From assembly GCF_037975245.1 (NCBI RefSeq), contig NC_092577.1, positions 4,113,501-4,177,500 of the forward strand: a stretch of 64,000 nucleotides of DNA, given 5' to 3'. Below, piece after piece: positions 216 through 22,066 of this stretch (its first letter is position 1; each line of letters begins with the position of its first letter). A model generated the notes under the pieces. The model was not told the origin of the DNA. It made no database searches and was given only the letters and a program-made list of their open reading frames with translations. A program made the position numbers and the translations under genes. The DNA comes from Apostichopus japonicus (lineage: Eukaryota; Echinodermata; Holothuroidea; Aspidochirotida; Stichopodidae).

Positions 216-331
216 GCCGTGCTGGTTGACATGGAAGAAGGAGTTGTTAATGAGCTGCTCTCTGGGTCGCTTCGAGATGTGTTTGATCATCAACAGATGC
301 TTACAGATGTCTCGGGATGTGGCAATAACTG
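216..331 (+). CDS. TUBE1: TUBE1 exon (first visible)
   Basis: The exon follows a T-rich tract and tacag, and ends AATAACTG before gtgcgt. It encodes [17 protein letters not shown]... to ...SGCGNNW. The final TG is completed to Trp by the first base of the next exon. Positions 1-215 are the preceding intron; no earlier exon is seen there. Confidence 0.92.
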
Positions 332-3300
332 GTGCGTCTTACCTTATGTTTTTTATATTTCTTTGGCAATAGTTGTCATATTCAGTGTTGAAGTTGCCGC
401 AACCTGCGAGAGTTTGTGGCAAGGGCTTCGTTAACACCATTTCAATATTTCAATTACTGGTGTGTCTTTCCTTAAATTTTGGTTCACTGTCGTATTCAGT
501 GTGGAAGTTGCTGGAATCTGCCATAGTTTTTGTCAAGGGCTACATTAACACCATTTCAATCTTCATACACATGTGAATGGTATAGATTGTTGGGGGTTTC
601 AACCACTGATGTAATAATTACTGTTTCAAACTCATGGTCATGACTATATAGTAGCATTTACATTGCTTGAAATAGGGCTGGAATTCTGTCTTATGAACAG
701 TAACAGCATTTTTACAGTATTCCAGTTAACAAGGCAGTGGGACTCAAAATGTTTGGCATTATGTCTTATGGACATCATATTTATAGTACCTTTTAAACAG
801 GGCTAAGGGTCTCAGAATGTATGGAATTCTGTACAATAAACAGTAACATTAATTTACTGTATTCCTGTAAATAGGGCTGTTGGCCACAAGATGTATCAAT
901 TTCAGCATCATACACATATGACATGGCTACAGTACACAAGGCCGTGGACCATCATCTGTGTTGATTTCTATATTGTGAACAGGCTTGCTGGTCACTTCGC
1001 CCAACAACCATTTCGCCCAACCAGCCTGGTCATTTCGCCCAACCAGCCTGGTTATTTCGCCCAACCAACATGGTCATTTCGCCCAACCTTGTTGGTCATT
1101 TCGCCCAACCTTTTTTTACGTTTCTTTACTAAAGTTATACAAACTAAAGGACTTCAAGTTTCCTTAATATTCGAACATTTACTATCAAACCTATCAAACC
1201 TAACCCCTAAAACACTGATCCATCCTCAAGTTTCCTTAATATTCGGTTCGTATCCCGTAACGTTAACAATTCCTGAACGTTTCCTTTTGAAGTATAATAT
1301 TTAATCAAGGTTGGGCGAAATGACCAGGGTGGTTGGGCGAAAAGACCTGGCTGGTTGGGCGAAATGACCAGGCTGGTTGGGCAAAATGACCAGGCTGGTT
1401 GGGCGAAATGACCAGCCTGGTTGGGTGAAATGGTAAGGTTGGGCGAATGGCAGTTGGGGAAATGGTTGTTGGGCGAAGTGACCTGCTTCCGTGAACAGTA
1501 ACGTCTGTTGTATGTCTGTAAGAGCAGTGGGACACATAGTGGGTAGATTTCAATATCCTGAATTTTAACAATTATTGTATTTCTTCAAACAGGGCGGTGG
1601 GCCACAAACTGTATGGCTTTCAATATCAAGAGCAACTGACGGAGACTATTCGATTAGCCGCAGAGCATTGTGATTGCCTGCAATGTTTCTTTCTGATTCA
1701 TTCAATGGGCGGAGGTGAGTAGAAAAATTGGAATTTTGGGAAAATCTATGCTACAAAATGCCCAATGGGTGGGTGAAACTGTTAAAGAGCCCGTAAGTTA
1801 TTTACACTTCAAAAAGTTCCATTCACACTGCTCAGAGAATGAGCTATGTATTTTGACCATAGCTGTTTGTAACCCAAAAGTCAAAGTAAAAACCACCCAC
1901 CCCTTAGAACAGAGGTAACCCTTGTCACAAGGATAGAACAGTAGTTTGTGCTTGGTTAATATGAATGCTGCATAATTGTGCATGTTTATAGTGTAAGAGA
2001 TGAAGTTTCAATATGAAGGATTGGGCCATTGTTTCATCAAAGCTCCCCTTATGCATTCAATCTTCTTCAGTACTATCGTGTGGTTAATAGTAATACAATC
2101 ACTATGTTGATGTACTTTCTTGCCCAACTTTTGGCCAAGTCACAGAGATTGAGCGTATAAAAAATTCAAACCAAAACAAAAGTGTCTTATTCGTTGTTAT
2201 TGTTTTGGTAGAGAAGGAAAGCATACCTCCGATTAATGCTTTCATCTGGACCAAAACACTATCAAAGAACGGGACATCATTCTTTCAAAGTTGGCTCCAT
2301 CTCTGTGAACGGGTCAAATTATTTGGGAGAAAGTACGTCACCATGATTGTGTGATTATTTACAACACAATAGTACCGTCAACAATTGTAGAGTGACTGAT
2401 CTGTTTAGTTTGTGTTTATAATGGAATGGATTATGGGGCTTTAAGTATGGTCATGTTATTGTGATGTTAACTACCCACCTGTATGTTACGTTAACTACCC
2501 ACCTGTATGTTACGTTAACTACCCACCTGTATGTTACGTTAACTACCCACCTGTATGTTACGTTAACTACCCACCTGTATGTTACGTTAACTACCCACCT
2601 GTATGTTACGTTAACTACCCACCTGTATGTTACGTTAACTACCCACCTGTAAGATATGTTAACTCCCCAACTGTATGTTACGTTAACTACCCACCTGTAT
2701 GTTACGTTAACTACCCACCTGTATGTTACGTTAACTACCCACCTGTATGTTATGTTAACTCCCCAACTGTATGTTACGTTAACTACCCACCTGTATGTTA
2801 TGTTAACTACCCACCTGTATGTTACATTAACTACCCACCTGTATGTTACATTAACTACCCACCTGTATGTTACGTTAACAACCCACCTGTATGTTACGTT
2901 AACTACCCACCTGTATGTTATGTTAACTACCCACCTGTATGTTAACTACCCACCTATTTGTTACGTTAATGATGTCTAATTGTGTGTTACATATCTTGTC
3001 ATCTGTCAGTGTGTGTTTTGTAATAGAGAGGTTCATACATCAAATTCCTGAATAAAACTACAGCATGTTTTTATCTTGTTGTCATCAGCCTAATCTGTAA
3101 CACTCCGAACCCAGACTGCTACTCTTCGATCCCTGCTGTGTCCCTGCCCTTGACCAAGGACTTGAAATAATTAACCTAATCTGTGACTCATCCGAACCTG
3201 CCTATTACTCTTCGAGCCAGGCCGTGTCCCTGTCCTTAACCAAGGACTTACAATATTTACCCTAATCTGTGACTCTCAGAACCCAGCATATTTCTATTCA

Positions 3301-6300
3301 AACCTGGTCGTGTTCCTGCCCTTAACCAATGACCTACATTAATGACCCTAATCTGTGACTCTCAGAACCCAGAATATTTCTATTCAAACCCGGCTGTGTT
3401 CCTGCTCTTAACCAATGACCTACATTAATGACCCTAATCTGTCACTTTCCGGTGCTGCGGCCGAGTGGATAAAGGCGGTGGCATTTGAAGCAATGAGGCT
3501 TAGCAATCGGGAAGTTCGGGGTTCGATTTCCGGCCTGGTCATAGTAAGGTGGGTTTTTCATCCAAGAGCAATCTACGGTTTTCCCATCTGAAATGACTTT
3601 CTAAATTGAAAAGATTCCAAATTTGAGTTAAAATGTTAAATTGGAAGCCACCCGACGTGTAAGTTGTAATCCATAAGCCCTTGCAGGCTTCTCCCACATT
3701 TGTGGTCGCTTAAGCATCATAAAAATAACTGTTGATTATTTTTATTATTATTATTATTATTACTTTCTGAACCCTGCCTATTACTCTACGAACCAGGCCG
3801 TGTCCCTGGCCATCTTCCAATAGCCACAGTTCATACATTTGGTCTGGAAGTCTTTGAAATACATAGCAACGGGTTGTATTCTAAAAAGAAATACAAGAGC
3901 AAAATAGCTTAGTTTTGACTATGGATTATGATGATGTTCAAAGCATGTAGGTATGTACATGTTACTGACATAAACTTTGGCAAACTTTTCATGGTATCTG
4001 AAAAAATAAATTCCTTACGTCAAAGATTGGGCTGATGACGCCATGATCCACATATACGCAGCTGGTCCAGTTTAAATCTATGCTGCATGAAGAAGAAGCT
4101 GAATGATATTGTACTTTTCGATCTTGCTTTAATGCATGTTGAAATCATTATAACCTATAAGAAGAGAAGTTGCTAATATCAACTTCAGAATGGTATCTTA
4201 AAGTTGCGTATGAACTCTTGTAAACAACTTAACCGTGGCGTATTCCATTCTGTCAGTTATAAGTGTAAGAGAGTGTGCCTCTTGTTTATTCAGTGTGTGA
4301 GGTCATGCCCGCAGTTTCTTTCGTTCCTGCATGTGGCATGGAGAGATCAGGTAGCTCACTGGCATTCTAGATCTGCGTAGGGTCAGTTGTGTGACCGGAT
4401 ACTAGATCGTGTAACTCACCGGCGTTCTAGATCTGCGTAGGGTCAGTTGTGTGACCGGATACTAGATCGTGTAGCTCACCGGCGTTCTAGATCTGCGTAG
4501 GGTCAGTTGTGTGACCGGATACTAGATCGTGTAGCTCACCGGCGTTCTAGATCTGCGTAGGGTCAGTTGTGTGACCGGATACTAGATCGGGTAGCTCACC
4601 GGCGTTCTAGATCTGCGTAGGGTCAGTTGTGTGACCGGATACTAGATCGGGTAGCTCACCGGCGTTCTAGATCTGCGGAGGGTCAGTTGTGTGACCGGAT
4701 ACTAGATCGTGTAGCTCACTGGCGTTCTAGATCTGCGTAGGGTCAGTTGTGTGACCGGATACTAGATCGGGTAGCTCACTGGCGTTCTAGATCTGCGTAG
4801 GGTCAGTTGTGTGACCGGATACTAGATCGGGTAGCTCACTGGCGTTCTAGATCTGCGTAGGGTCAGTTGTGTGACCGGATACTAGATCGGGTAGCTCACT
4901 GGCGTTCTAGATCTGCGTAGGGTCAGTTGTGTGACCGGATACTAGATCGGGTAGCTCACTGGCGTTCTAGATCTGCGTAGGGTCAGTTGTGTGACCGGAT
5001 ACTAGATCGGGTAGCTCACTGGCGTTCTAGATCTGCGTAGGGTCAGTTGTGTGACCGGATACTAGATCGGGTAGCTCACTGGCGTTCTAGATCTGCGTAG
5101 GGTCAGTTGTGTGACCGGATACTTTATACTATACATGTTACTTGTGCACTGGTGTGGCAGCCAGTACAACCCATGCCGATACTGCGTGACCTTTGATGTT
5201 ATAGGAGTAAAGGATAATAAAGAGGTACGTTTTAACTATTGCGCACATTTTTCAAATCCTGTCTGTTCCTTACATCTTCAGGTACGGGATCTGGTGTTGG
5301 CACAGCAATTTTAAGTCTGCTTGAAGACGAATACCCCGACGTGTATAGGTCAGTACGACAGATACCCCAACATTTATAGGTCAGTACGACAGATACCCCA
5401 ACATTTATAGGTCAGTACGACAGATACCCCAACATTTATAGGTCAGTACGACAGATACCCCAACATTTATAGGTCAGTACGACAGATACCCCAACATTTA
5501 TAGGTCAGTACGACAGATACCCCAACATTTATAGGTCAGTACGACAGATACCCCAACATTTATAGGTCAGTACGACAGATACCCCAACATTTATAGGTCA
5601 GTACGAGAGGTACCCTGACGTTTAAAGGTCAGTACGACAGATACCCTGACGTTTATAGGTCAGTACGACAGATACCCTGACGTTTATAGGTCAGTACGAC
5701 AGGTGCCCTGACGTATATACGTCAGTACGAAAGATGCCGTGACGTTTATAGGTCAGTACGACAGATACCCTGAATTTATAGGTCAGTACAACAGGTGCCC
5801 TGACGTTTATACGTCAGTACAACAGATGCCCTGACATTTATACGTCAGTACGACAGATAAACACTTTACAGGTCAGTACGACAGATACCCTGACTTTATA
5901 GGTCAGTACGACAGATGCCCTGACGCTTAGAGGTCAGTACGACAGATGCCCCTACGTTTATAGGTCAGTACGACAGATACCCTGACGATTATAGGTCAGT
6001 ATGACAGATACCCTGATGTTTATAGGTCAGGTCAGTACAACAGATAATGTAAATAACGGTTCAACAAAACAAACTTGTTCTGATCGTCAAAGAAACTTGA
6101 TTTTATTCTCCAAATGACTATTTATTAAACCATTTTTTTTTCATGTAATAGATTTTTAACAGCAGTCTACCCTAGTGCTGATGATGATGTCATAATGTCC
6201 CCATTCAAAAACATTTTTTTTCATTTAATAGATTTGTAACAGCAGTCTACCCTAGTGCTGATGATGATGTCATAACGTCCCCGTACAATAGTGTCCTCGC

Positions 6301-9300
6301 CATGAAGCAGTTAACGGATCATGCGGACTGTGTAATGCCTGTGGAAAACCAGGTAACTCCCTAAAACAGATGCTTATGGCACAATATCCATTTTACAATA
6401 GTGTTCCGACTTATTGATCCCCCATGTCCTGATTTCTAATGGTGATTTATATGACATAATGTCCAGGGCTGTATAACACTGTCCTGACCTGTAGAAAATC
6501 GCTTAAAGGATTGGTTCAGTTGTCATACATGTTTTATGTTATATGAAAGAGGACAATAAAAGAAACACAATGGTGAAAAAACTATTCAAACAACTTTTTC
6601 GGTTAAAGAGATATTCAAGTGTAAAGTTTTATTAGATTGTGTAGAAACTGCTGAAATCTGACTAGCTGTGATGTCACATCCTCACATTCCTGAAAAGTCT
6701 TTGTTTTTTTCTCTAAATATTTTGTGAGATTTCATGACTTTCAACCAAAAGATATGTCAGGAGATCTCATATTTTTGATTATTTTATTTTCAATGTGTTG
6801 AATAATGTAAATAATTTTTAAAGAAATATATTCACAAATGTTAAGGAAGTGAGGATGTGACGTCACACCCTCACAATTAGTCTTTCTACACCAGTCGTTT
6901 TCAAAGAAATTTTGATATCTTCAAAGTGTCATATCTCCTTAATAGAGCATGCTATCATGGTAGTTTCTTCACTGTTCTTTTGTCAAACACCTGAATCAAT
7001 CTTTTAACTCCTGAGAGAGCTGCATAAAACCAGGTACTATTCCCTTATAGAAATGAGTTTACTGACTGAAATAATATCATTCAAAACTAGTATCATTTAA
7101 CAGCTTCGAATTTATTGTTATCGTTACTTTACTGACAGGCTCTAATTGACATATGCCAAAAGATATCGCAGGCTCAAGCTACTGTGAGCGGGGGTAAGAG
7201 GACCTACCCTACCCATCCCGGAGGGGGGAGGAAGAGAACCCAAAAGAAGCCTGGCAGTGGCCCTGCTTCTGGAGATGAAAAACCATTTGATGCAATGAAT
7301 GACATTGTTGCCAATTTACTTCTGAACTTAACAAGGTTCGTGTTTGTTTTCTTGCGACTATATTCCATTCAAATAGGGGAAGCAGCCTATAGTATGAAGG
7401 CTTCATTTGGAAAAGCATTGAATGGTTGAGATCAGATGTTTGGCAAAAGTCACACATTAGACCGCAAGCTTTCCCCACTGACCCCTTGATATGTGACTGA
7501 TATTTTAATTTGTGTAAGACGCTGTCTGTGAGTATGGGAAGCTTATGACATGTATTAAATCTATGCAATGTCCATCACACTTATTTTAGGCCTAGTGTTC
7601 AGCAACACAAAGTGGAAGTCAATATTTATAGCATGCACACACAGCTGGTCTAACAACAGACCAAATGTGAAATTCTTTGTCTCAAAGGGCAAACATGTTG
7701 ACCCAAGTCTTGTTATATAGTAGTGAGGATAGGGTTATCTTTAATACCATGGTTTATCTGAACCAAACACAGTATCTTGCTATGGCCTGCCTGCTGGATG
7801 GTGGTAAGTGGGTTATTCAGTCCCCCTTGTGGGGAAAATAAAATAATTGAAGGGAGTTGCCCAAAATTCAACTAAAAGAAATGGCAATATGCCATGAAAG
7901 CTCTGAACTGTCACAGGACTGTTTACTATTGAGGATAATGTATTTGTATATTGAGGATAATTTATTTGTCTATTGAGGATAATGTATTTGTCTATTGAGG
8001 ATAATGTATTTGTCTATTGAGGATAATGTATTTGTCTATTGAGGATAATGTATTTGCCTTTTTTGCTGAGCATCCAGATTGAATTAACAAAGTTTTGAAA
8101 ATGTCCGTGTCAATGTGAGAAAGTTGCTTTGTAAACATTCTAATGGTCCTTTTATTATGCTGATCTTACTTTGAGGTTGAACTTTTTACCTTTAAATCTG
8201 TTTCCAGGTATCCTCTCTAATCAATTCCCTCACCCCTCAAACTTATCTGCCTTTTCCATACAATGGCAACTTGTCATAATTGGTCTGGAAAATTTGGTAG
8301 CCCTATTCCAACATATCTTGCAATGTCATGAGTTGTGTGGTAGTAATTTTATATTAGCCAATTAATTGCAGGGGTACTTTGCCATTTACCGAATAAGAAT
8401 AGTGTTGTTATTGCATGTTGAGCTCTGCAACCATAGATGTCACCACTAATCCCTAAGCTTTTATTAAACAATTAACAGTGGCATAGTTTCTTCTGTTTCT
8501 AACAGTTCCTCCAGATTTGACGGCTCTCTTAATGTCGATTTGAACGAAATCTGCACCAACCTGGTTCCATTTCCTCGTCTCCATTACCTTGTCACTAGTC
8601 AGACACCACTTTATGCTCTTAGTGACTTAAGAATTCCTTCCAGAAGGTAACACTTTTTAAAGTTTTTTTTTCATTTTTTTTCATTTTTTTAAAAGAATAG
8701 TCCAGGTCAAAATTTCGTTTTGATATGTTAAAGAGGAACATAATCTAAGCATTCTAGTGAAGTTGTCACCTTTCGTATAATGAGTGAACTTTGAGCAAGC
8801 AGGTGTGATGTCATAGTTACACACTGATAAATAATGTTTTTTTTTTTTTTCCAGTCTATTGATTTGACCTTGGATTGGGTTGGATTACTAGTTTGTCTAA
8901 AGGGGATGTGAAGTTTATCAAATACCAATACCTATTGTACATTAATAATATGGATGCATCCCATTGTGGAGGATAAAATTAGAGGTACATATTAAAGGAA
9001 AGCAAAACATTAATTATCAGTGTGCAACTATGACCTCACACCTGTTTGCTCCAAGTTCACTTTTGGTACGAAAGGTGGCAACTTCAACTGTCAATATCTC
9101 AAATAAGGTACATAGGAATTAAATGCAAAATTTCACCAGAATGCTTCAATTATGTTCCTCTTTAATATATTAAAACGCAATTTTGAGCTGGACTATTCTT
9201 TTAAAATGCCCCCCCCCTCCCCCGCTCCATCTTCCTAAACTATGCAAAGTCACAAATTTATCCAACAGGTATAGACTGTATAAACTGAAGTATTCAAAGG

Positions 9301-12300
9301 TGGGAGAAATCGAATACCATAGAAAATATCATTTATTTCTTTAGCCAGTGCTATTATAGTCACATGGATAAAAGTGGTGGTGTTGGAAGCAATGGTACCT
9401 AGCATCTCAGAGGTTGTGGGTTCGATTCCTAGCTGACCAAAGTAACCTGGCTTTGTCATATAGCATCTCAGAGGTTGTGGGTTCAATCCCTAGCTGAACA
9501 AAGTAACCTGGCTTTGTCATATAGCATCTCAGAGGTTGTGAGTTCAATCCCTAGCTAACCAAAGTAACCTGGCTTTGTTGGACAGCCTATCAGAGGTTGT
9601 GGGCTCAATCCCTAGCTAACTTAAGTAAGCTGGCTTTGTCATATAGCATCTCAGAGGTTGTGGGTTCAATCTCTAACTGGCCAAAGTAAGCTGGCTTTGT
9701 CATACAGCATCTTAGAGGTTGTGGGTTCAATCCCTAGCTGGCCAAAGTAAGCTGGCTTTGTTGGACAGCCTATCAGAGGTTGTGGGTTCAATCCCTAGCT
9801 AACTAAAGTAAGCTGGCTTTGTCATATAGCATCTCAGAGGTTGTGGGTTTAATCCCTAGCTGACCAAAGTAACCTGGCTTTGTTGGACAGCCTCTCAGAG
9901 GTTGTGGGTTCAATCCCTAGCTAACTAAAGTAAGCTGGCTTTGTCATATAGCATCTCAGACGTTGTGGGTTCAATATCTAGCTGGCCAAAGTAAGCTGGC
10001 TTTGTCATACAGCATCTTAGAGGTTGTGGGTTCAACCCCTAGCTGATCAAAGTAACCTGGCTTTATTAGACAGCCTATCAGAGGTTGTGGGCTCAATCCC
10101 TAGCTGGCCAAAGTAAGCTGGCTTTGTCATAATGGAGATATCCACGGTTTTCCCATCTGAAATGGTCATTCCAAATTGTGAAAAATACGAAATAAGTGTG
10201 CATTGGAAAGCCACCCAATGTGTAAGTAATAAGCCATTTAAGCGTCTCCCACATGAATGCATGGCTGTCTATCACCGTAAAAATAACTGACTATTTGCAT
10301 AAATTATACCATAATTTGCAGGAAAGAATCCATCTTGAACTTATAATTATCACAAAACATGTATTGCTGGTCAATGTTTGTTTTGGGGCAGGAAAGTAAT
10401 TCTCATAAGGCCTTTCTATCTGTGGTAAACAATAGACAATCCAGCACAATCATAACTTTTTGAATTAATTTGTACTACAAAAAGGATGTGTTTTAAAGGT
10501 CTATTTTATCCATTTTTACAAATTGGATTGGTAGCCCACAGATCCTTGTGTCAACATGGGTTTTGGCCCACTTCCTAAAATATTTCTTAGGAGAAACCTC
10601 TGATATTGATTGTCAAAGGGTGAAAACTTACAAATGTGTGTCTGTTTTTTCGGTTTTACCAAACTCACTCATTTTTCGGGCAAACATCATTTGATTTTTA
10701 CGGATCATCAGTGGTATCATCGCATGAATTCAGCACTATGCAGCAATGCAGAAATGTCAGGTTTGTAGAATGTGAAGTCATAATTTTACCCAAGAGCGCC
10801 ACATTTCAAGAATGTGAGCACCATTTCATTCTTCAGAATACGTACATAGGCAGAATTACAACGCAAAATACTTGTGAATAGGCCAAATGAAGTCAATTAG
10901 TTTTTGAAGTGTAAATATTAAAATATAACTTTTTGTCGTCCGTCTGTCTGTCCGTCATTAGATTAGACCAGATGTTCAGCGATGCCTTCAGTAGGGAGAA
11001 CCAACTCATCAAAGCGGATCCCAAGAACAGCCTTTATATCGCCTGCGGATTGATTTGTAGAGGCCAAGTGGAAATATCTGACATTAGAAGAAATATAGAT
11101 AGGTCAGATGAATACATGTATATATACTATGCCATGTTGTGTTGTGTTGTGTCATGTTGCACTGTGTTGCACAGTGTTGTGATGTTTTGTATTATGGTAT
11201 GTGATGAATTCTAGTGTTGTGCATTTCTCTGCTGTACCATGCTGTATTGGCCATATAGACAGGTCAGATGAATACATGTATATATACTATGCTATGCCAT
11301 GTTGTGTTGTGTCATGTTGCACTGTGTTGTACAGTGTTGTGATGTTTTGTATTATGGCATGTGATGAATTCTAGTGTTGTGTATCTCTCTGCTGTACCAT
11401 GTTGTATATAGACAGGTCAGATGCAAACATGTACGCCATGCTATGCCATGGTTTGTTGTGTTGTGTCATGTTGCACTGTGCTGTGTAGTGATGTGATGTT
11501 TTGTATTATGGTATGTGGTGAATTCTAGTGTTGTGTTGTGTATCTCTCTGCTGTAACATGCTGTATTGGCTATATAGACAGGTCAAATGCAGACATATAT
11601 GCTATGCTATGCCATGTTGTGTTGTGTTGTGTCATGTTGCAATGTATAGTGTTGTGATGTTTTGTATTATGGTATGTGGTGAATTCTAGTGTTGTGCATT
11701 TCTCTGCTGTACCATGCTGTATTGGCCATATAGACAGGTCAGATGAATACATGTATATATACTATGCTATGCCATGTTGTGTTGTGTCATGTTGCACTGT
11801 GTTGTACAGTGATGTGATGTTTTGTATTATGGTATGTGATGAATTCTAGTGTTGTGTATCTCTCTGCTGTACCATGTTGTATTGTCTATATAGACAGGTC
11901 AGATGCAAACATGTACGCCATGCTATGCCATGGTTTGTTGTGTTGTGTCATGTTGCACTGTACTGTGTAGTGATGTGATGTTTTGTATTATGGTATGTGG
12001 TGAATTGTAGTGTTGTGTTGTGCATCTCTCTGCTGTAACATGTTATATTGGCTTGACTAGGTTACAGCCAGCATTGGTCAATAGAGCATGTATGTGTTAG
12101 GTTGTGATGTGATATGTCATGTGTTGTACAGTGTTGTGTTATACTTTGCTGTACCATGCTGTATTGGCTTAACTAGGTTGCTACCAGCATTGGTCAAAGA
12201 ACATGTTTACATACTATGTTATTTTGTGCTGTGTCATGGTATGTTTTGCTGTTTACTGTAGTGTAGTAATATTGTGTGGGAGAAAAACTTAACAGCATAG

Positions 12301-15287
12301 ATAAAAACTTGCAATAATGTATCAGGCTATAACATACCATGTTTGGGGTTTATGGCTCTTTGAATGTGACCTCACCAAAAACTATAGATAGAGGTTAACA
12401 TATATTTCTGCAAGAGATACAACTGTTAGAATAACTGACCCTTAGTAGCCAAACATTAGGTCCTAATTAGTGCGTTAGGCTATTTTGTAAACCATAAATC
12501 ATGTTTTAGTCTTGAAAATGGCTGGGATTGCATTCACTTAAAGGGGTGTGAGAACCAATTTGGATGTTTCGTTCACTCAAACATGTCCATCAGACATTAA
12601 TTTGCTGGCAACTTAAAGCAACATTTTGCGTTTGGTCGCCGTTTTCTACTTTTTTGACATGTCCATCAAGATTTTTACATATATCAATCACAAAACAGCA
12701 AACTAAGATATTAGCCAAGTTTTTCCCTGCCAACAACATTAATTTGGCAAGTAATTAAGGATATTTGCAGATAATGAGAAAAGTGTCCACGACAAATTCC
12801 ACAGTTAAAAGTTATCGCATACAGTTCCCCCAAACCCACTAGTTTGAATTCAACCAATCAGAGATTTAGGGTTTAGTTATGAGCCGTTGCTAAAAGTAGA
12901 TTCAAGACTTTGCGTTGGTACAACCAGGGAGTTGTTATGGAACTCCCGTGGTACAACTGCCATATAGACTGTACACAAATCAAGCATGGTGTTTTATTAC
13001 GTATTGGTCGATGAAGTTCGTAGTGTTTAAATATTCATATTATGGGCGCGAGGTTTATTGGGATCCCAACGGAAAATATCTTGGAGAAAATTAAAGATGG
13101 AAGTTGCAAATTTTTCGACTTTTATGCCACCATTTGATGTAAGATTTAAATAGATAAGCTAGTTATGTATGTCGTTATGGCATAGAAGAGTCAGTGAGGT
13201 TGAGAAAAATCATAGAAAAGGACGCAAAATGCTGCTTGAAAAATTAGCATTCAGCCTCTGAAGAAGATCTTGCTAGGATCCAAATGCAGGCCCTCTTACT
13301 TTTAAACATAAAATTTTGGCCTCTGTTTGCTCTCTTAGGTTGCGTCCATCTTTGAAATTCATTCACTGGAATACGGACGGTTGGAAGACGGGTCTCTGCT
13401 CCGTTGCTCCCGTGGGACACCCCTATTCTTTATTGACACTGGCCAATAACACCTGCCTCTGTCATAACTTTGGCGAGCTGAAGGACAGATTTGTGAAACT
13501 GTTTAAGAGGAAGGTAAAGTTTGTATTAATTAAGACTTGCTTTGACCTAGGCTTTAGTCTAGGGCTTAACCCAAACTTCTTTTTTCCGGTGACCCAACGT
13601 GCTCTTCATGTTTACGGGTCTTGACCCAAGCTTGTGTACTAGTATTTAGTAGTATTATTATGATTATGTTATTGAGTACAACTGACAAGAAATCTTTGTC
13701 AGAGGTATTCTTTAAAGGTCTGTTAAACAGATTTATAATATTAACAAGGAAACAAAACCTTTGGATTTGGAGTGCTAAGCAATTTACTGCATCTCGTTGT
13801 ATGTGTAACTATCAAAGAGACTCAAAGTACTACCTGTAGTACCCCAGATTAATATTCTCTCAGTTTCACACTGGTTAAAGGGAGAAAGATATTCCAGCAA
13901 GGGCATAGGAAAATATGGGGGGGCGGAAGTATCATTCCGCCCCCCCACTTCGCAAGTCAGAAAACCCCTTTTTCATTTCTCAAGAAATCATAACAACATT
14001 CGTCATTTTACTCAGAACATTTTGGCAGAAAAAAATCTCATTTGGAGCACCAAATTGCATCTAAGGCAAGGTGAAAATGCAAAATTACTTACAAAATGGA
14101 GTGGGTGTTGAAGTGTGCTATATTGCACCAAATTGCATCTGAGGCCACCTGAAAATGCAAAAAATTTCCAAAGGGGAGGGGGACACCTCCCTTAGACCCC
14201 TCCCCCAGGCCGGCCATCAGTCTTTAACCCCCCCACTCAAAAGTACCTTCCTTTGCCACTGTATTCCAGAATGTTGTATCTGACCAACAGAAATTTGCCT
14301 CATGACTCACTCTTATGTTAGGGACACGAGCCACAGTTTGGGATGTAGTGCTTTCTCAAATTGAGGATGTGAAAAGGACTTGGTTTAATTTATACTTACA
14401 CCTGATTGCAAAGTCTAGATTTTGTCGTCTGACTCTCAGTACTAAATTGTGTGTGAAAGTAAGCCGGCCTGACGTTTCGATGCAGGATCTTCTTCAGAGG
14501 CTGAATGACAAGTAACAGTTACAAAAGGGACAAATACAAACCTATCTGTATTCTGTGTTTGTGTGTTTGTGCATTTGTCCCTTCTGTTACTGTTACTTGT
14601 CATTTAGCCTCTGAAGAAGATCCTACAAGTTCAAAAAATGAGGCCAACTTACTTTTACACACATTCTCTTACACAGGCTCTTTTTAGTGGATAAGCACTT
14701 TGCTAACAGTTCTATTTGATTTTGAATTTCGAAACAACTGTCTTGGAATTCTCTTCAGCAGATGAATGTTCACGTTATTACCTGCTTATTAGTTAATAAC
14801 CTTGTCGTCTAGCATTAGCTTCCAAACTTCTTTAACTGGCCACTCATATGCTTGTCATACTTCAGTTGTGATAGTACATTCAGATTATTGTGAGAATGAC
14901 AGGCAGTCGTAAGGCTACACGTAATCAATATTGGAACTGCTATAATGTAATCAACATCCACTCGGAATTTTCTCTGTACGAAAATGTGTCTCTGTACGAA
15001 AATGTACGAAATTTCAATTGGCCGGGAGATGTTTCTCCAGGTGTAAAGTTAAGTTTAATCAGTAATAAACTGGCTAATAGTCAAGATAGGTTATCAATTA
15101 ACAGATATATTTCTTACAAAACTTTGGTTCACTACAGGCACACATCCATCACTACACTAGTGTGGAGGGTATGGATACCGAACTATTTAACCAAAGTCTG
15201 GAATCGTTGCAAAGTTTGATAGAGGAATATCAACAATTAGATGTCAAACAAGCTGAGAGCACACCAAGGCTGCAGGTACCCTGCTGA
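216..15287 (+). CDS. TUBE1: epsilon-tubulin gene, 5' end off the left edge
   Basis: Nine exons join in frame: 216-331, 1593-1714, 5282-5348, 6232-6352, 7139-7335, 8506-8646, 10962-11102, 13339-13513 and 15138-15287. They total 1230 nt, or 409 residues plus stop. Epsilon-tubulin has about 475 residues, so roughly the first 65 lie upstream of the window. Landmarks in order: [35 protein letters not shown], the tubulin GTP-binding glycine loop GGGTGSG (split by an intron), [52 protein letters not shown] and LANNTC. These are epsilon- rather than alpha/beta/gamma-tubulin wording. The family works at centrioles and basal bodies, where epsilon- and delta-tubulin are needed for stable triplet microtubules. 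Every junction keeps phase and is GT-AG. The coding part looks intact. The introns are very repeat-rich, and six exon edges lie inside tandem repeats. Confidence 0.95.
323..560 (+). repeat. two-copy tandem duplication starting at a TUBE1 donor
   Basis: Copy 1 begins CAATAACTGgtgcgtctt across the exon end. Copy 2, near 449, begins tcaattactggtgtgtctt. Both end near gttaacaccatttcaat. Copy 2 therefore carries a decayed decoy donor. Confidence 0.7.
650..1630 (+). repeat. ~70-bp tandem repeat built from a TUBE1 acceptor, interrupted by a MITE
   Basis: About seven diverged copies share the pattern gaacagtaac, a T-rich tract, aaacagGGC, then TGGGCCACAAaaTGTATGG. The last copy is the real acceptor and exon start at 1593. 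Earlier copies begin near 655, 720, 790, 858 and 930, and another near 1520 follows the MITE. Several retain cag or tag at the acceptor position. Confidence 0.7.
983..1490. mobile_element. 508-bp MITE with minisatellite-like terminal inverted repeats
   Basis: It is flanked by the 8-bp direct repeat gtgaacag (975-982 and 1491-1498). The inverted ends share GGTCACTTCGCCCAACAACC. Inward, both arms carry 20-22-bp units of ggtcatttcgcccaaccagc type in opposite orientation, around a ~195-bp AT-rich core. Paralogous copies of the host repeat show the empty site (gaacagtaac near 696), which supports a true target duplication. The 8-bp duplication fits hAT or P-type transposition. No ORF of its own. 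Confidence 0.8.
1593..1714 (+). CDS. TUBE1: TUBE1 exon with AEHCDCLQ motif
   Basis: Acceptor cttcaaacag, donor gtgagt. It encodes [19 protein letters not shown], then [19 protein letters not shown], then GG plus one base of the next Gly. Its first ~35 nt are repeated, decayed, several times upstream. Confidence 0.93.
1715..2460. other. TUBE1 intron segment, no feature recognised
   Basis: Single-copy-looking intron DNA. No exon, RNA gene or clear repeat was seen. Confidence 0.5.
2463..2970. repeat. 24-bp minisatellite, about 21 units
   Basis: The unit is gttaactacccacctgtatg plus ttac. Minor variants such as ctccccaa recur at intervals, hinting at a higher-order unit. It contains no start or stop beyond a spurious open frame. 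Confidence 0.95.
3088..3835. repeat. 86-bp tandem repeat, five units, split by a SINE
   Basis: Units start ctaatctgtgactc at about 3090, 3176, 3262, 3348 and 3434. The fifth is broken at 3451 and resumes at 3762 with actttctgaaccctgcc. Confidence 0.85.
3452..3761 (+). mobile_element. tRNA-derived SINE, full length
   Basis: The head resembles a class II tRNA (Leu/Ser type) with a box A region CGGCCGAGTGGATAAAGG and box B GGTTCGATTTCC. The body contains tctacggttttcccatctga and ggaagccacccgacgtgtaa, and the tail is (att)n. The flanks actttccg and actttctg look like a slightly diverged target duplication inside the 86-bp array. Heads or bodies of the same family recur at 9355-10300 and, on the minus strand, near 63240-63305. 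Confidence 0.85.
3836..4335. other. TUBE1 intron segment, no feature recognised
   Basis: AT-rich intron sequence between two arrays. Nothing recognisable. Confidence 0.5.
4340..5122. repeat. 60-bp minisatellite, about 13 nearly identical units
   Basis: The unit contains gtagctcaccggcgttctag, atctgcgtagggtcagttgt and gtgaccggatactagatcg. Units differ only at a few fixed sites (cacc/cact, cgtg/cggg), and variants sit in blocks: cacc early, cact late. That indicates recent stepwise expansion. It ends 160 bp before the exon at 5282. Confidence 0.95.
5282..5348 (+). CDS. TUBE1: TUBE1 exon carrying the second half of the glycine loop
   Basis: Acceptor catcttcag, donor gtcagt. It completes [20 protein letters not shown] and PDVYR. 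The last ~19 nt plus the donor are the seed of the 31-bp minisatellite that follows immediately. Confidence 0.92.
5330..6045 (+). repeat. 31-bp minisatellite seeded on a TUBE1 splice donor, about 22 units
   Basis: The exon ends GAATACCCCGACGTGTATAG|gtcagtacga. The array repeats agataccccaacatttatag plus gtcagtacgac. Proximal units are nearly identical; distal units are diverged. Most carry an AG|gtcagt decoy donor. The unit length is not a multiple of three. Confidence 0.92.
6133..6290 (+). repeat. 80-bp tandem duplication of a TUBE1 acceptor and exon start
   Basis: T-run, catgtaatag|ATTTTTAACAG at 6152 is a copy of catttaatag|ATTTGTAACAG at 6232. Both continue through CTACCCTAGTGCTGATGATG and diverge after the CCCC. 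The upstream acceptor looks usable but the copy lacks a donor. Confidence 0.9.
6232..6352 (+). CDS. TUBE1: TUBE1 exon with [11 protein letters not shown]
   Basis: Acceptor catttaatag, donor gtaact. It encodes [41 protein letters not shown] partial copy of its start with its own acceptor lies 80 bp upstream. Confidence 0.93.
6507..7003. mobile_element. 497-bp TTAA-flanked MITE
   Basis: TTAA occurs at 6503-6506 and 7004-7007. The inverted ends are A(G/A)GATTG(G/A)TTCAG. Internal inverted blocks gtgatgtcacatcctcac and gtgaggatgtgacgtcacac are also seen. A TTAA target duplication is typical of piggyBac or Kolobok superfamilies. It has no ORF. Confidence 0.8.
7139..7335 (+). CDS. TUBE1: TUBE1 exon with [18 protein letters not shown]
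   Basis: Acceptor actgacag, donor gttcgt. It encodes [20 protein letters not shown], a Gly/Lys/Pro-rich loop, then [19 protein letters not shown]. The basic loop between these blocks is the most variable part of the visible protein. Confidence 0.92.
7336..7915. other. TUBE1 intron segment, no feature recognised
   Basis: Intron DNA with no exon or repeat I can name. Confidence 0.5.
7925..8058. repeat. 22-bp minisatellite, six units
   Basis: The unit is tattgaggataatgtatttg plus tc. The intron continues to 8505 with nothing else recognised. Confidence 0.9.
8506..8646 (+). CDS. TUBE1: TUBE1 exon with [14 protein letters not shown]
   Basis: Two in-frame acceptors are close together. I chose ctaacag, which gives [11 protein letters not shown] and fits the family's LTSSARFEGSL pattern. 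The second (cctccag) would drop three residues. Donor gtaaca. It encodes [38 protein letters not shown]. Confidence 0.9.
8693..9200. mobile_element. 508-bp TTAA-flanked foldback MITE
   Basis: TTAA occurs at 8689-8692 and 9201-9204. The inverted ends start AAGAATAGTCCAG and stay similar for about 80 bp, including tTAAAGAGGAACATAAT and AAGCATTCTggTGAA. Inner arms also pair (tcacctttcgta with tacgaaaggtgg). It lies 46 bp after the donor of the exon at 8506. Confidence 0.85.
9355..10300 (+). mobile_element. tRNA-derived SINE with its box B segment amplified ~12-fold
   Basis: The head (acatggataaaagtggtgg at about 9361) and the body/tail (tccacggttttcccatctga near 10140, ggaaagccacccaatgtgta near 10205) match the SINE at 3452. 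Between them, a ~61-bp unit holding gaggttgtgggttcaatccc repeats at about 9410, 9470, 9531, 9592, 9652, 9713, 9775, 9836, 9897, 9957, 10018 and 10080. Each unit keeps a box B-like GGTTCAATCCC. Confidence 0.85.
10301..10961. other. TUBE1 intron segment, no feature recognised
   Basis: Nothing recognised except the short pyrimidine tract and acceptor before the exon at 10962. Confidence 0.5.
10962..11102 (+). CDS. TUBE1: TUBE1 exon with [11 protein letters not shown]
   Basis: Acceptor gtcattag, donor gtcaga. It encodes [47 protein letters not shown]. The exon end and donor recur in the ~158-bp repeats downstream. Confidence 0.93.
11090..12060 (+). repeat. ~158-bp tandem repeat carrying a TUBE1 donor, six units
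   Basis: The exon ends ATATAGATAG|gtcagatgaatacatg. Downstream units carry atatagacag|gtcagatg near 11255, 11408, 11573, 11732 and 11890. The rest of each unit is tgttgtgttgtgtcatgttg-type sequence. Traces continue to ~12250. Confidence 0.85.
12617..13236. mobile_element. 620-bp TTAA-type MITE, copy 1
   Basis: The left flank is TTAA (12613-12616), the right flank a decayed tgaa (13237-13240). The inverted ends are AGCA(G/A)CATTTTGCGT. It is co-linear with the copy at 51504-52119 throughout, including tgaattcaaccaatcagaga and catatagactgtacacaaat. No ORF. It lies ~100 bp before the exon at 13339. Confidence 0.88.
13339..13513 (+). CDS. TUBE1: TUBE1 exon with [13 protein letters not shown]
   Basis: Acceptor tctcttag, donor gtaaag. 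It encodes [58 protein letters not shown]. No repeat touches its edges. Confidence 0.93.
13898..14261 (-). mobile_element. 364-bp hAT-type MITE
   Basis: Flanked by the 8-bp duplication tattccag (13890-13897 and 14262-14269). The ends resemble CAGTGGCRTAGGAA. It is the reverse-complement relative of the copy at 34204-34536, sharing caaattgcatctgaggccac and the polyC/G blocks. Confidence 0.85.
14484..14623. repeat. inverted repeat, ~50-bp arms
   Basis: Arms 14484-14534 and 14573-14623 pair (aggatcttcttcagaggctg with cctctgaagaagatcct), with a ~38-bp loop. It is probably a small foldback element; a fragment of the arm also occurs near 13256. Confidence 0.7.
15138..15287 (+). CDS. TUBE1: TUBE1 terminal exon
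   Basis: Acceptor ttcactacag. It encodes [49 protein letters not shown], then TGA at 15285-15287. The PRL near the end matches the family tail. The last residues and the stop lie in the first unit of a 50-60-bp minisatellite. CAG|gtaccc at 15276 could also be a donor to an unseen exon, but the in-frame stop is the simpler reading. Confidence 0.85.
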   Translation, partial: AHIHHYTSVEGMDTELFNQSLESLQSLIEEYQQLDVKQAESTPRLQVPC

Positions 15288-16000
15288 GTAAGGAAGGGAG
15301 CAGGCTGAGTGCAGACCAAGGCTCTAGGTACCCTGCTGAGTAAGGGAGGGGGGAAGGCTGAAAGCAGACCAAGGCTGCATGTACCCTGCTGAGTAAGGAA
15401 GGGGGCAGGCTGAGTGCAGACCAAGGCTGCAGGTACCCTGCTGAGTAAGGGAGGGGGGCAGGCTGAATGCAGACCAAGGCTGTAGGTACCCTGCTGAGTA
15501 AGGGAGGGGGGCAGGCTGAATGCAGACCAAGGCTGCAGGTACCCTGCGGAGTAAGGGAGGGGGCAGGCTGAATTCAAACCTGGAATGCAGGTACCCTGCT
15601 GAGTAAGGGAGGGGGCAGGCTGAATGCAGACCAAGGCTCTAGGTACCCTGCTGAGTAAGGGAGGGGGCAGGCTGAATGCAGACCAAGGCTGCAGGTACCC
15701 TGCTGAGTAAGGGAGGGGGCAGGCTGAATTCAAACCTGGAATGCAGGTAACCTGCTGAGTACGGGAGGGGGCAGGCTGAGTGCAGACCAAGGCTGCAGGT
15801 ACCCTGCTGAGTAAGGGAGGGGGCAGGTTGAAAGCAGACCAAGGCTGTAGGTACCCTGTTGAGTAAGGAAGGGGGAAGGCTGAATGCAAACCAAGGCTGC
15901 AGGTTCCCTGCTGAGTAAGGGAGGGGGGCAGGCTGAATGCAAACCTGGAATGCAGGTACCCTGCTGAGTACGGGAGGGGGCAGGCTGAGTGCAGACCAAG
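15252..16000 (+). repeat. 50-60-bp minisatellite that contains the TUBE1 stop codon, about 13 units
   Basis: The first unit is GCTGAGAGCACACCAAGGCT, GCAGGTACCCTGCTGAG, which is coding and stop. Later units read gctgaatgcagaccaaggct, gcaggtaccctgctgagtaa. Two unit types alternate (with gaccaaggctgc or aacctggaatgc). Open frames on the other strand here are repeat artefacts. Confidence 0.9.
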
Positions 16001-16192
16001 GTTTGTGTATGCACCCATCACACCACCCCTCCTCTACCTGTGGGTAGAGGCCTACTTGGGGAATGGGAGGGAGACAGATATATATATTTGCAAATATGTT
16101 AGAAAACTTTTACCAAATGATCTTAATGATAATGCTGCTCTGTGTTTGGGATTGTGCAAGATTGAGGAGAAGAAGAAAGTAGCATTGTGTTA

Positions 16193-16198
16193 AATAAA
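16193..16198 (+). terminator. possible TUBE1 poly(A) signal
   Basis: AATAAA lies ~910 bp after the stop codon and just after the minisatellite. It is the first good signal downstream of the last exon. No transcript evidence. Confidence 0.4.
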
Positions 16199-16609: not shown

Positions 16610-17539
16610 CCCAGCTTGTAAACACTATATCTCAAGGAGGAACGGTCTGACCAATTTCATATTTAATGTGTAGAAGAACCACATTGAGTACAAGAAGCCT
16701 ATTGTTTTTAGTGGAGGTCAAAAGTCATTTAGGTCACCAGGGTCAAATTGTTAAAACCTTGTAAACATGCTATCTCAAGAAGGGAAGGTCCGACCAATTT
16801 TATATTTGTTGTGTAGAAGTACCACATATGTTACAAGCAGCCTATTGCTTTTGGTGAAGGTTATTTGGGGTCATCGGGGTCAAATTGTGATAACCTTGTA
16901 AACACGCTATCTCAAGAAGAGAAGGTCGGACCAATTCATACTTAATGTGTAGAAGTACCACAGTGGGTGCAAGAAGCCTTTTGTTTCTGGTGGAGTTCAA
17001 AGGTTATTTGGGGTCACCAGGGGTCAAAGTGTGAAGACCTTGTAAACATGATATCTCAAGATGGGAAGCATGGGCAGACTTCATATTTAGTGTGTAGAAG
17101 TACTACATTGAGTACAAATAGTCTATTGTTTTTGGTGTAGCTCAAAGGTCATTTGGGATCACGATGGGTCAAAATGTGAAAACCTTGTAACATACTATCT
17201 CAAGAAGGGAAGGTCGGACCAAGTTTGTACTAATGTGTAGAAGTACCACATTGAGTACATGAAGCCTATTGTGTCTGGTGGAGTTCAAAGGTTATTTGGG
17301 GTCACCAGAGGTCAAGTTGTAAAAACCTAGTAAACAATATCTCAAGAAGGGAAGCATGGGCAGGCTTCATATTTAGTGTGTAGAAGTACCACATTGAGTA
17401 CAAAAGTCTTTTGTTTTTGGTGGAGCTAAAAGGTCATTTGGGGTCACGAGGGGTCAAAATGTGTAAACCTTGTAAACATACTATCTCATGAAGGGAAGGT
17501 CGGACCAAGTTTGTACTAAATGTGTAGAAGTACCACATT
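16610..17539. repeat. ~143-bp satellite, left part
   Basis: Seven units are marked by ccttgtaaacatgctatctc, tgtgtagaagtaccacattg and aaaggtcatttggggtcacc. The array continues after the Gypsy insertion. Units contain AGGTCA/GGGTCA hexamers spaced by 4 bp. Confidence 0.9.
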
Positions 17540-17544
17540 GAGTA
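17540..17544. repeat. target-site duplication GAGTA, left
   Basis: Direct repeat of 22282-22286. Removing the element restores the satellite phrase acattgagtacaagaagcct. Confidence 0.92.
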
Positions 17545-17759
17545 TGTAGTGTTATGCGCTTAGACCTTCAGGTACTAAGAATAACAATAAATAAAGATGA
17601 ACACGATTCTTCTGGTTGTGTCTGTTATTTTATTTTACGGGTTCCGTGATCTTCGATAATCAGTCGTTCACAAACTGCTCGCATGCATCAGCTGTATCTC
17701 ATAGCTCACAATGCGAACATAACTATCGTATATAGATTCTTCAGAATCCTTACAGTACA
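17545..17759 (-). repeat. 3' LTR of the Gypsy element
   Basis: 215 bp, identical by eye to 22067-22281. On the element strand it contains aataaaataacag, a possible poly(A) signal. Confidence 0.95.
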
Positions 17760-17769
17760 TCCCCAACCC
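17760..17769 (-). other. probable polypurine tract
   Basis: It reads GGGTTGGGGA on the element strand, next to the 3' LTR. It is purine-rich but imperfect. Confidence 0.5.
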
Positions 17770-17784
17770 AAGCATACAACATGC

Positions 17785-20700
17785 CTAATCAAGATTCCAA
17801 GTTTTTGGTTTAACCAATCGACCTGATCTAGTTCTATATTGTTTAGGTCTAGGTGAGCTACTTTGAGAGTAGCTTGGTAACTCTTTAGAAGTTTCACTCT
17901 GTGTCTGTGTTGATGGTTGAGCAATAGGACCTGAGGTTAGTGACTCAGTTTGCTCATTAGTACTTTCATCATATTGACTGATGTTTGGTTCAAAATCAAC
18001 AAGATTTCCATCATGACTACAAGGATTGCAGTTGATGATGTGTTTCCTGTTTCTACGCAGATTACCCCTTGGTGAAGACACCAGATATGAACGGGGTTCC
18101 TCTAATAATCTATCTACAACCCCATGAGTCTTCATGTCTTTAATAAAAACCTGTGTACCTGGTGGTATCTCTTCAAGAGACTTGGTTCTATGGCTTTTGT
18201 CATAATTGTCTTTTAAATATTGACGCTTACTCATTTCAAAAGCCTCTAGTTTGTTCTTGTCAGGTATCTGGGGTACCAGCTGGGAAGGAGCAACTGGTAA
18301 GGTTGTCTTTATCCTTCGACCAAACAATAACTCAGATGGACTATACCCGTTTGCTAGGGGAGTAGCTCTGTATGCCATAAGTGCTAGATAAGGATCTTTT
18401 GACTTCTTAATTAATCCTTTCACTGTTTGGACAGCTCGTTCAGCTTCCCCGTTAGACTGACTATACAAAGGGCTACTAGTAATGTGTGTGAATCCATATT
18501 TCTTACTAAATGCCTTAAACTCACTGCTAATGAACTGTGGTCCATTATCAGAACGGAATACATCTGGGATACCATGACGACTGAACATGGACTGCAAATG
18601 CATGATAATATCAGATGATTTGGATGTGGAAGTAAGCTTGGCTACTTCTATGTACCTTGAATAATAATCCACTACCAATAGGTAAGTACTATCCTGCAGA
18701 TAATACAAATCTGCTGCTACCCTCTCCCATGGGCGTGATGGAAACTGAGAAGGCATCATGGGCTCCTTGACCTCCCGAGCCTGGTGGGCACACGTGTGAC
18801 ACTTGTACACTAGGTCACCTATTTGGGAGCTGATACCCGGCCACCACACTGATTGCTTTGCACGCTCTCTACACTTCACAATCCCCTGATGCCCTTCATG
18901 GATGAAGTCTAGGACTTCTAACCTTAACGAGCTAGGGATGATGATTCTAGGGCCCCTTAGAAGGAGATTGTTGTATGTAATTTCTCCCCTAAATGGGTAA
19001 TAACCTTTTAAAGCCCCAGACAATTGTGGTTTATCTGGCCAGCCATCTGTACAATATTCAATAAGCTTGACACATACAGGATCATTCACTTGTTCTTGTT
19101 GAATCTTAGTCAAATATGAATTATTAACTGGCAACTCAGATATGATATAATTGGCATACGACTGCACTTCCCCCTCTAGATTGTCACTCATAGATATTTC
19201 GCCACAGGGTGCTCTAGAGAGTGCATCAGGGACAACTAACTCTTTCCCTGGGATATGACTTATGTCATAGTTGTACCTCATCAACCTGATTCTAAACCTT
19301 TGTATCCTTGGTGGGAGCTGATTGAGATCTTTCAGACCCAATAGAGAGACTAGTGGTTTATGGTCAGTTTCAATCTTGAACTTCATACCAATAAGAAAGT
19401 TTGCAAATGTATCACAAGCCCAGGTAACACCAAGTGCTTCCCTTTCGATGGGAGCATAATTGCTTTCAGCACTGGTAACAGACCTTGATGCGCAAAATAC
19501 TAGTCTCCACTCCCCTCCTTGTTGCCTCTGGTACAAGCAGGCACCTAACCCTCGTTTTGAAGCATCACTTGCCACTTTTGTTTCCAGGTTAGGATCAAAC
19601 AATGCAAGACATGTGCCGCTTAGGCATTCTAACTTAATCTCATTAAATGACCTTTCTTGAGGTTCATTCCATACCCACTGCTTGTCCTTTTGTAGCAGTT
19701 CCCTAATGGGTTGACTGAGATCCGATAATTTTGGTGAAAACTTGCTAAATTGATTCACAATGCCCAAAAATCTACGTACATCATGAATATTTTCAGGCCT
19801 AGGCATATCTCTCAGTGCCTTGGTTTTCTCAGGATCAGGTAAGATACCATTTTCTGAAACAATGTGTCCTACAAACTGAATTGATTTCTTACTTATCTCA
19901 CACTTAGCCTTGTTCAGAGTCATGCCAGCTTTATCTAATCGATTTAGGACTTCACCTAATCGAACATCATGCAAGTCCTGATTTGGTGCATGAATCAAGA
20001 TATCGTCAATGAACACTTCAACACCCTCTAGATCATCTAGTAACTGAGCAAGTCTCTTTTGTGCATGCTCAGGAGCAGATGTTATGCCAAATGGCATTCG
20101 ACTATAGGCAAATCGCCCAAACGGTGTGATGAATGTGGTTAGAAGCTTGGATGACTCTGTCAAGGGAATTTGGTGGAACCATGAATTAGCATCAAGCTTG
20201 CTAAAGATCTTAGCCCCAGGTAGTCTACTAAGTACTTCGCTAGTACTTGGTATCATGAATTTCTCTGTTTTCACGTACTGGTTCAGTTTTGTGTAATCAA
20301 CACATATTCTGACGTCCACCACATTTCCCTTTTTATCCCTCTTAGGGACCGGGACCATTGGTGAGCAAAACTCAGTTGGTTCATTTACTTTGAAAATGAT
20401 TCCCTCATTCTCTAGTTTTTGTAGTTTACCCTTAATTATTTTGTACAAAGGAACTGATGCTATCTTTCTAGGTGCATTGACTGCGTGTGGCACATAACCC
20501 TCTGCAAGCTTGATATTGTACTCGCCCTTCATAACCCCCAGACCAGAAAATAACTTTGGATGGTGTTTCTCCACCTCTACGTTATTAACAATTCTCACTA
20601 CATCTAATGCTTCGATAGCTGGTTTGCCTAATAAGGCTGTGGTGCAATCTTTGACCACATACATAGATTGGTTGGAGGATCTGTTATTAGCTCGAAAATC

Positions 20701-21810: not shown

Positions 21811-22052
21811 ATTTGTGACGAACGGCAGTTAATACTAGTGCCCAGATAATAGCGTTAATGTTATTGTATAGGCCCAACGGTATATATGTAACTCACGGCA
21901 GCTTTGTAGCCTACCAAGACAATATAACAATGCTGTATGTACCGTACAGTTACCCTGTTCACTTCGACACGCTCTCCAGACACGTTCTCCAGACAGTCGA
22001 TAAAAATTGACTTACCAGCAAGGATTTTCGCCAATTTCCGCTTAAAATCGCT

Positions 22053-22066
22053 CACTTCTGACACCA
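22053..22066 (-). other. primer-binding site, tRNA-Leu type
   Basis: Directly after the 5' LTR the element strand reads TGGTGTCAGAAGTG. It is complementary to the 3' end, with CCA, of a metazoan tRNA-Leu of the CAA type as I remember it. Confidence 0.7.

Follow-up and report, generated by a model that had tools for sequence, protein, structure and literature searches.

Minisatellite-like duplications of intron/exon boundaries, termed mirages, are known from lancelet genes, and the sections of the two reports drawn on here name Branchiostoma Adh3, TnC, the globin genes BflGb6 and BflGb9, and PGBD5 as genes that carry them, with unit lengths of 10 to 72 bp in Adh3, 150 to 160 bp in the globin genes, and 60 and 108 bp in PGBD5 (PMC3087553, PMC3902484). 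Here, we analyzed a stretch of 64,000 nucleotides from the sea cucumber Apostichopus japonicus (C17:4113501-4177500, referred to as the window), in which a tubulin gene on the forward strand has six of its boundaries inside tandem repeats. We call this gene TUBE1 and take it to encode epsilon-tubulin, a label that comes from an earlier reading of the window's letters (the sequence-only reading) and from background on the human protein, not from a database match.

As in the lancelet mirages, five of the six TUBE1 repeats are minisatellite-like duplications across an exon-intron boundary, both ends are hit (donors 331, 5348, and 11102 and acceptors 1593 and 6232), and many copies keep the AG/GT (20 of 23 in a 31-bp array and 6 of 6 in a 160-bp array). 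Unlike the lancelet cases, this one comes from a sea cucumber, it involves five splice boundaries of one gene together with a stop-codon array, and the material is the genomic sequence of one haplotype only. Judged by their sequence, five of the six repeats are mirage-type, and the sixth is a repeat of this type that covers a stop codon instead. We consider it likely that such duplications are tolerated at the boundaries and that no boundary-seeking process is needed to account for them.

Six boundaries of TUBE1 lie within tandem repeats

Six TUBE1 boundaries, namely, donors 331, 5348, and 11102, acceptors 1593 and 6232, and the stop codon at 15287, were found inside tandem repeats whose unit contains the boundary. 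This bears out the central claim of the sequence-only reading, and the repeats were backed by Tandem Repeats Finder (TRF), self-BLAST, a shift scan, and gapped alignment. TRF alone recovered four of the six boundary arrays (5331-6030, 6134-6282, 11093-12053, and 15252-16001), and self-alignment added the pair at donor 331 and a 70-bp family, now decayed, that precedes acceptor 1593.

Donor 331 closes exon 5 (216-331) and is held in the unit of a two-copy duplication of about 128 bp (321-583), with a second donor-like site after 459. The copies lie 128 bp apart at the edge and 114 bp apart further on. With a score of 20, this duplication is weak but real, as none of 900 intron positions outside arrays reached that score. 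Exon 6 (1593-1714) starts within a family of about 70 bp (660-1628) whose unit holds acceptor 1593 and which is split by a dispersed element at about 990 to 1490. This family comprises the exon copy and five clear decayed copies at 712, 781, 854, 936, and 1508, which scored 18 to 29 against a background maximum of 14.4. Of the approximately seven copies claimed earlier, the exon copy and these five stood, while a sixth decayed candidate near 662 scored 11, no better than chance on the same background. Against a null model, and against control positions for the 1593 family and donor 331, the duplications exceeded chance. The element at 990-1490 carries inverted 22-bp subrepeats, and sequences matching parts of it are spread over many sites on many chromosomes; in a genome search with a query from the 1593 family, 84 of 85 rows matched only the dispersed-element part (40 of 911 candidates scored).

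Exon 7 (5282-5348) runs into a 31-bp array (5331-6036), whose unit consists of the last 18 nucleotides of the exon and 13 nucleotides of the intron, with donor 5348 between them. The array has 23 copies including the exon copy, the last one partial, and the donor-like AGGTCAGT was present in 20 of the 23. Exon 8 (6232-6352) begins in an 80-bp tandem duplication of two copies (6134-6288), and here the unit holds acceptor 6232 and about 50 nucleotides of the exon. At the end of exon 11 (10962-11102), six copies of about 160 bp (11093-12053) were found, each derived from the last 10 nucleotides of the exon and about 150 nucleotides of the intron, and AG/GTCA was kept at the donor position in all six. 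Finally, exon 13 (15138-15287, with the stop codon at 15285-15287) leads into a 52-bp array of 14 copies (15252-16001), whose unit is made of the last 36 nucleotides of the coding sequence, including the stop codon, and 16 nucleotides of the 3′ untranslated region (UTR); 11 of the 14 copies have the full stop-codon context. The copy numbers proposed earlier for the 5348 and stop-codon arrays were about 22 and 13. The 52-bp array is most likely 3′ UTR, because the stop codon lies upstream of it and an AATAAA near 16194 downstream. A hidden donor array (CAG/GTACCC) was also weighed for these copies, and the AATAAA near 16194 favors the 3′ UTR.

A boundary repeat was looked for and not found at exon 9 (7139-7335), exon 10 (8506-8646), and exon 12 (13339-13513). 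For comparison, TRF placed intronic arrays off the boundaries, on the same strand, with units of 24 bp (2466-2969), 86 bp (3089-3446), 60 bp (4344-5123), and 61 bp (9401-10131). TRF arrays with a period of at least 10 covered 34% of the tubulin gene region (216-16001) versus 7.5% of positions 16002-64000, and an automatic pipeline run on the full gene placed 35% of TUBE1 intron bases inside tandem duplications.

The complete gene has 13 exons, nine within the window and four upstream of it (-4916 to -4892, -3925 to -3906, -2509 to -2403, and -414 to -348 in window coordinates). The exons were set by frame and GT/AG; all twelve introns have GT/AG, and the joined coding sequence runs for 482 codons without interruption. 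The exon at -3925 to -3906 is a microexon of 20 nucleotides that encodes the VGQCGNQ region. Pfam identified tubulin domains in the product, and the best-matching solved structures are beta-tubulins. The remaining tubulin-like matches in the genome are only 28 to 43% identical to the TUBE1 product; they include clusters on C3 (about 28.78 to 28.85 Mb) and C21 (about 17.5 to 17.8 Mb), with open frames of 357 to 476 codons.

It is extremely unlikely that the arrays are assembly or sequencing artifacts, a refutation that the sequence-only reading had itself named. The high-identity array at 4344-5123 and a 479-bp duplication in a fibrinogen-type gene of the window (both 98% identity by TRF) could in principle be misassembled. 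Against this, private mutations distinguish the copies, the two oldest families are only 75 to 88% identical in BLAST pieces, similar structures occur at independent loci, and the matching A. japonicus assembly is described, in the part of its report used here, as HiFi based with mean reads of 14.7 kb, longer than the arrays, which reach about 1 kb at most (PMC10344927). That published assembly is given as 671.60 Mb, with 23 chromosomes of 18.21 to 46.02 Mb, 34 scaffolds, and a G+C content of 38.56% (PMC10344927); the genome searched in this work comprises 671,581,487 bases in 35 contigs, and the G+C content of the window is 38.3%.

Independent origin and divergence of the units

Representative units, one per family, were compared all against all, and the longest shared matches were 9 to 13 bp. 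Divergence also differed among the families, from 93% identity in the 80-bp pair down to 75% in the 70-bp family. A common founder for the six units was considered and rejected, since only short, chance-like matches were found. The units are thus unrelated in length, sequence, and divergence, and therefore the families arose separately, as had been proposed from the unit sizes.

Comparison of the exon copy with the intron consensus in the 31-bp and 160-bp arrays showed three differences. All three are at third codon positions and leave the Pro, Val, and Asp codons concerned unchanged in meaning, whereas stops, frameshifts, or replacements occur in several of the intron copies. In these two arrays, the exon copy looks to be under constraint while the intron copies drift, and to that extent the earlier claim that the exon copy stays in frame while the rest decay was upheld.

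Splice site choice in TUBE1

Every alternative site modeled in TUBE1 introduced a premature stop. The donors modeled were 459, five of the 22 inner donors of the 31-bp array, and five inner donors of the 160-bp array, and the acceptors were seven AG sites in the 1593 family and 6151. In the 31-bp array, the premature stop falls in the second copy and is hence common to all further donors. Because the inner sites tested all give a premature stop, the predicted working splice site must be the outermost copy, that is, the first donor or the last acceptor. The decoy copies are presumably ignored by splicing, with mis-spliced RNA cleared by nonsense-mediated decay. For the lancelet, the Adh3 data and globin reverse transcription-PCR, as far as the sections drawn on here go, suggest regular splicing despite the duplicated AG/GT (PMC3087553), and another report, in the part considered here, puts forward nonsense-mediated decay as a possible shelter for imperfect splicing (PMC2809761).

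It was also observed that the period at the edge is divisible by 3 in none of 11 splice-boundary units (chance of about 0.012, post hoc). The units counted were those of 128, 70, 31, 80, and 160 bp in TUBE1 and of 137, 121, 46, 31, 124, and 220 bp in the sample of other genes described below. Two exceptions stand outside this count: an array of 69 bp that abuts a donor and is divisible by 3 and the 331 pair, whose copies are 114 bp apart away from the edge. Frame-shifting decoys are possibly better tolerated, since decay removes the transcripts.

These data also bear on whether the arrays are kept by selection, for splice-site buffering, U1 small nuclear ribonucleoprotein (snRNP) sequestration, or regulation of TUBE1 by unproductive splicing. 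The retention of the full donor-like AGGTCAGT in 20 of 23 copies of the 31-bp array would fit such a role, and stops behind all the alternative sites tested would suit regulated unproductive splicing. The intron part of the 31-bp unit is more uniform than its exonic part, and yet no functional signal was found in this conservation, as an equally good result came from 5 of the 31 circular shifts, a number that includes the observed one. Seven consecutive copies of the array are identical, which homogenization explains. We therefore regard selective maintenance as highly unlikely.

Boundary repeats in other genes of the genome

An independent sample was picked by gene family, not by repeats, and consisted of nine multi-exon CCT-type genes and three myosin stretches. 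The label CCT-type is taken from the Pfam family Cpn60_TCP1 alone; 53 of 57 matches were used, and the single-exon loci C8:490794 and C3:29768027-29769685 (four matches) were dropped. For myosin, 6 of 70 matches entered the sample, in three stretches with two neighboring exon matches close together.

Similar repeats were present in this sample. A CCT-type gene on C21 has a 121-bp donor array with seven AAAG/GTATCA donors, each with some 60 nucleotides of exon, a 46-bp donor array present in some eleven copies, and a duplication of an exon end that has a period of 137 bp. Most of the 46-bp units hold both GAG/GTATGT and TTTCAG, so that donor-like signals take turns with acceptor-like ones along the array at intervals of a few dozen bases. 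In a CCT-type gene on C17, the unit of a 31-bp array consists of the last exon bases and the donor, and a 69-bp array abuts another donor. One myosin stretch carries three copies of a 124-bp unit with an acceptor and about 70 nucleotides of exon, and another carries a 220-bp donor duplication with about 75 nucleotides of exon.

Placement of the repeats relative to exon edges

At the level of single bases, edges were not enriched in repeats. At a score of at least 20, 6 of 18 edges in the window part of TUBE1 had a nearby copy versus 39.9% of 900 random intron positions; an ungapped scan of TUBE1 gave 5 of 18 edges versus 34.4%, and the automatic pipeline on the full gene gave 5 of 25 edges versus 35% of intron bases. 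The independent sample yielded 6 of 113 edges (one false edge included) versus 19.1% of noncoding positions, and the fibrinogen-type gene yielded 2 of 14 edges (both of a doubled exon) versus 27% of intron positions. Because tandem duplications occupy roughly one-third of the TUBE1 intron sequence, overlap with a boundary is unsurprising per base.

The arrays were also counted as founders, i.e., each was collapsed to one unit and scored for whether the original unit contains an edge. This count is fairer than the per-base one because array expansion cannot shift an array onto an edge. In TUBE1, founders with a splice edge numbered 3 of 9 among TRF rows (P = 0.029) and 5 of 12 among all loci (P = 0.003). 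The automatic pipeline gave 4 of 16 in the window part (P = 0.053). Three TRF rows are not among the 13 loci listed by hand, namely, 8664-8690, 14971-15005, and 1419-1477, the last of which was assigned to the element at 990-1490. The TUBE1 founder P values are optimistic because the gene was picked for looking striking. In the sample, restriction to edges modeled from neighboring matches in the nine CCT-type genes gave 2 of 34 loci versus 0.92 expected (P = 0.23), and all placeable edges gave 5 of 40 versus 2.80 by the script (P = 0.14). On inspection, one script edge (C17 14607) proved false, the true donor lying at about 14558, and two cases had been missed: C17 20279, where the 31-bp array has an indel, and C21 9326, where the aligned copy of the 137-bp duplication ends bases short of the donor.

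Several results weigh against placement by chance followed by tolerance and drift. Among the 13 hand-listed TUBE1 founder loci, 6 contain an edge, where 1.29 were expected (P = 0.0006); TRF rows by themselves gave 4 of 10 (P = 0.006), and the automatic pipeline on the full gene gave 4 of 17 versus 1.53 (P = 0.057). After correction, the sample held 5, 6, or 7 of 40 loci, depending on how strictly cases such as the 69-bp array, which only abuts its donor, are counted, versus 2.96 expected from both ends of all 59 sample exons (P = 0.17, 0.066, and 0.022). With the odds raised by 2, TUBE1 kept P = 0.013, and odds of 3 brought it to 0.056. As for drift, two replacements are found in the eight 31-bp copies nearest the exon, and two of the three exon-copy differences change the amino acid in the 52-bp array, which covers a poorly conserved C terminus.

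An exon-containing copy diverges on one side only and should by this argument, which is not a measurement, stay recognizable up to about twice as long. With the odds raised by 2 accordingly, the sample P values became 0.43 (6 loci) and 0.26 (7 loci). The founder excess is strong in TUBE1 alone; in the independent sample it is weak and disappears once a two-fold detection bias is allowed for. The excess could be explained by TUBE1 having been chosen post hoc and by exon-containing copies remaining detectable for longer.

A boundary-directed process, in which, for example, breaks or slippage connected with transcription, R-loops, or splicing signals seed repeats at exon-intron junctions and at donors above all, would account for the founder-level excess in TUBE1 and for its weaker counterpart in the sample. 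It would also fit the 9 donor versus 3 acceptor cases in TUBE1 and the sample together (two donors borderline). However, this donor bias has a two-sided p of 0.15, and a donor majority is the expected direction in any case if acceptor decoys lying upstream are less well tolerated. The lack of base-level enrichment, a sample excess that is nonsignificant at odds of 1.5 to 2 (P of 0.11 to 0.43), and the common occurrence of same-size arrays off the boundaries in TUBE1 introns all speak against such a process, and we regard it as unlikely. The mutational seeding at AG/GT put forward by the sequence-only reading is not supported as stated, given the absence of base-level enrichment and the weak founder excess in the independent sample. 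A boundary-seeking process is neither demonstrated nor excluded by these counts, and ordinary duplication plus tolerance explains most of the pattern; we infer that placement needs no such process.

Other features of the window

The fibrinogen-type gene on the reverse strand contains a 479-bp tandem duplication (29822-30732) that includes a whole exon of 57 nucleotides, with copies at 30419-30475 and 29940-29996. The exon has symmetric phase, AG and GT are kept in both copies, and the two copies would be read in frame with one amino-acid difference. The exon 29024-29337 and the fibrinogen exon 28388-28655 are out of frame with each other under the GT/AG sites chosen. Tandem exon duplication is a general known class, to which this in-frame doubling of a symmetric-phase exon is similar; it takes a whole exon and not a boundary, which sets it apart from the TUBE1 arrays. 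The duplication is a possible single case of a source of new exons. The earlier suggestion that such repeats supply new exons gained one candidate here, and in TUBE1 no new intron was seen.

A retroelement at 17544-22281 has reverse transcriptase, RNase H, and integrase domains, and its 216-bp terminal repeats show 100% identity. Two blocks of a single 143-bp tandem array flank it (16615-17544 and 22282-22902). Because the terminal repeats are identical and the same array lies on both sides, the element appears to have inserted into this array recently. Two single-frame genes of the TRIM type were also present (37138-39387 and 53386-55725), and Pfam identified a RING domain in both and a B-box in the second.

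Discussion

The TUBE1 repeats probably arose as follows. Where introns abound in tandem duplications, stretches some tens to hundreds of bases long would be duplicated at many places, and some of these stretches would by chance contain an exon boundary. A boundary duplication would be tolerated as long as splicing relies on whichever copy is outermost, meaning the first for donors and the last for acceptors, the remaining copies then being intronic or, for the stop codon, part of the 3′ UTR. The array may subsequently expand and homogenize by unequal exchange or slippage and its intron copies drift, while selection would hold the exon copy in frame.

A stronger proposal is that duplications are seeded preferentially at splice donors via transcription or splicing, which would make exon borders hot spots for the origin of minisatellites in two or more deuterostome phyla. 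We think this improbable. If true, donor seeding in lancelets and echinoderms would steadily supply duplicated boundaries for exon and intron evolution.

The repeats bear on how the spliceosome chooses the outermost among some twenty near-identical donors, and for annotation, such arrays can yield false exons and false alternative splice sites. That boundary repeats are raw material for new introns and exons is an idea worth testing, even though the small tests made here gave no proof that the copying is directed to exon borders. A long-read chromosome assembly makes the idea of intron birth testable, with boundaries perhaps caught at stages from two fresh copies to decayed arrays.

Among described systems, the parts covered of a report on earthworm metallothionein contain intronic repeats and no boundary case (PMC12783039). 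No echinoderm mirage was found among the titles and abstracts of open-licence papers listed by searches mostly not aimed at echinoderms, which is weak evidence of novelty. Rogers-type intron gain proceeds by tandem duplication of AGGT segments, with a boundary-crossing variant in a potato RNA-dependent RNA polymerase gene, according to the part of the source used here (PMC4974935). Tandem duplication across an intron-exon boundary is common to this variant and TUBE1; unlike in Rogers-type gain, no new intron was seen in TUBE1, where the additional copies are placed either in the 3′ UTR or in introns flanked by conserved exons. In human segmental duplications, internal tandem repeats at exon-intron boundaries can change splicing, and 27 intron modifications are given in the part of that report considered (PMC2812944). 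Minisatellite-sized repeats at boundaries are shared with that system, which concerns recently duplicated, primate-specific paralogues, whereas the sea cucumber repeats are in conserved genes.

The lancelet mirages are the closest known counterparts of the TUBE1 repeats, and we are dealing with a known kind of phenomenon met in what is probably a new phylum. The present analysis contributes another taxon, the density of boundary repeats within a single gene, an array over a stop codon, and an approximate test of how the repeats are placed. As mirages have so far come from a few lancelet genes, going by the sections of the lancelet reports cited above, the sea cucumber cases would make the phenomenon broader among deuterostomes.

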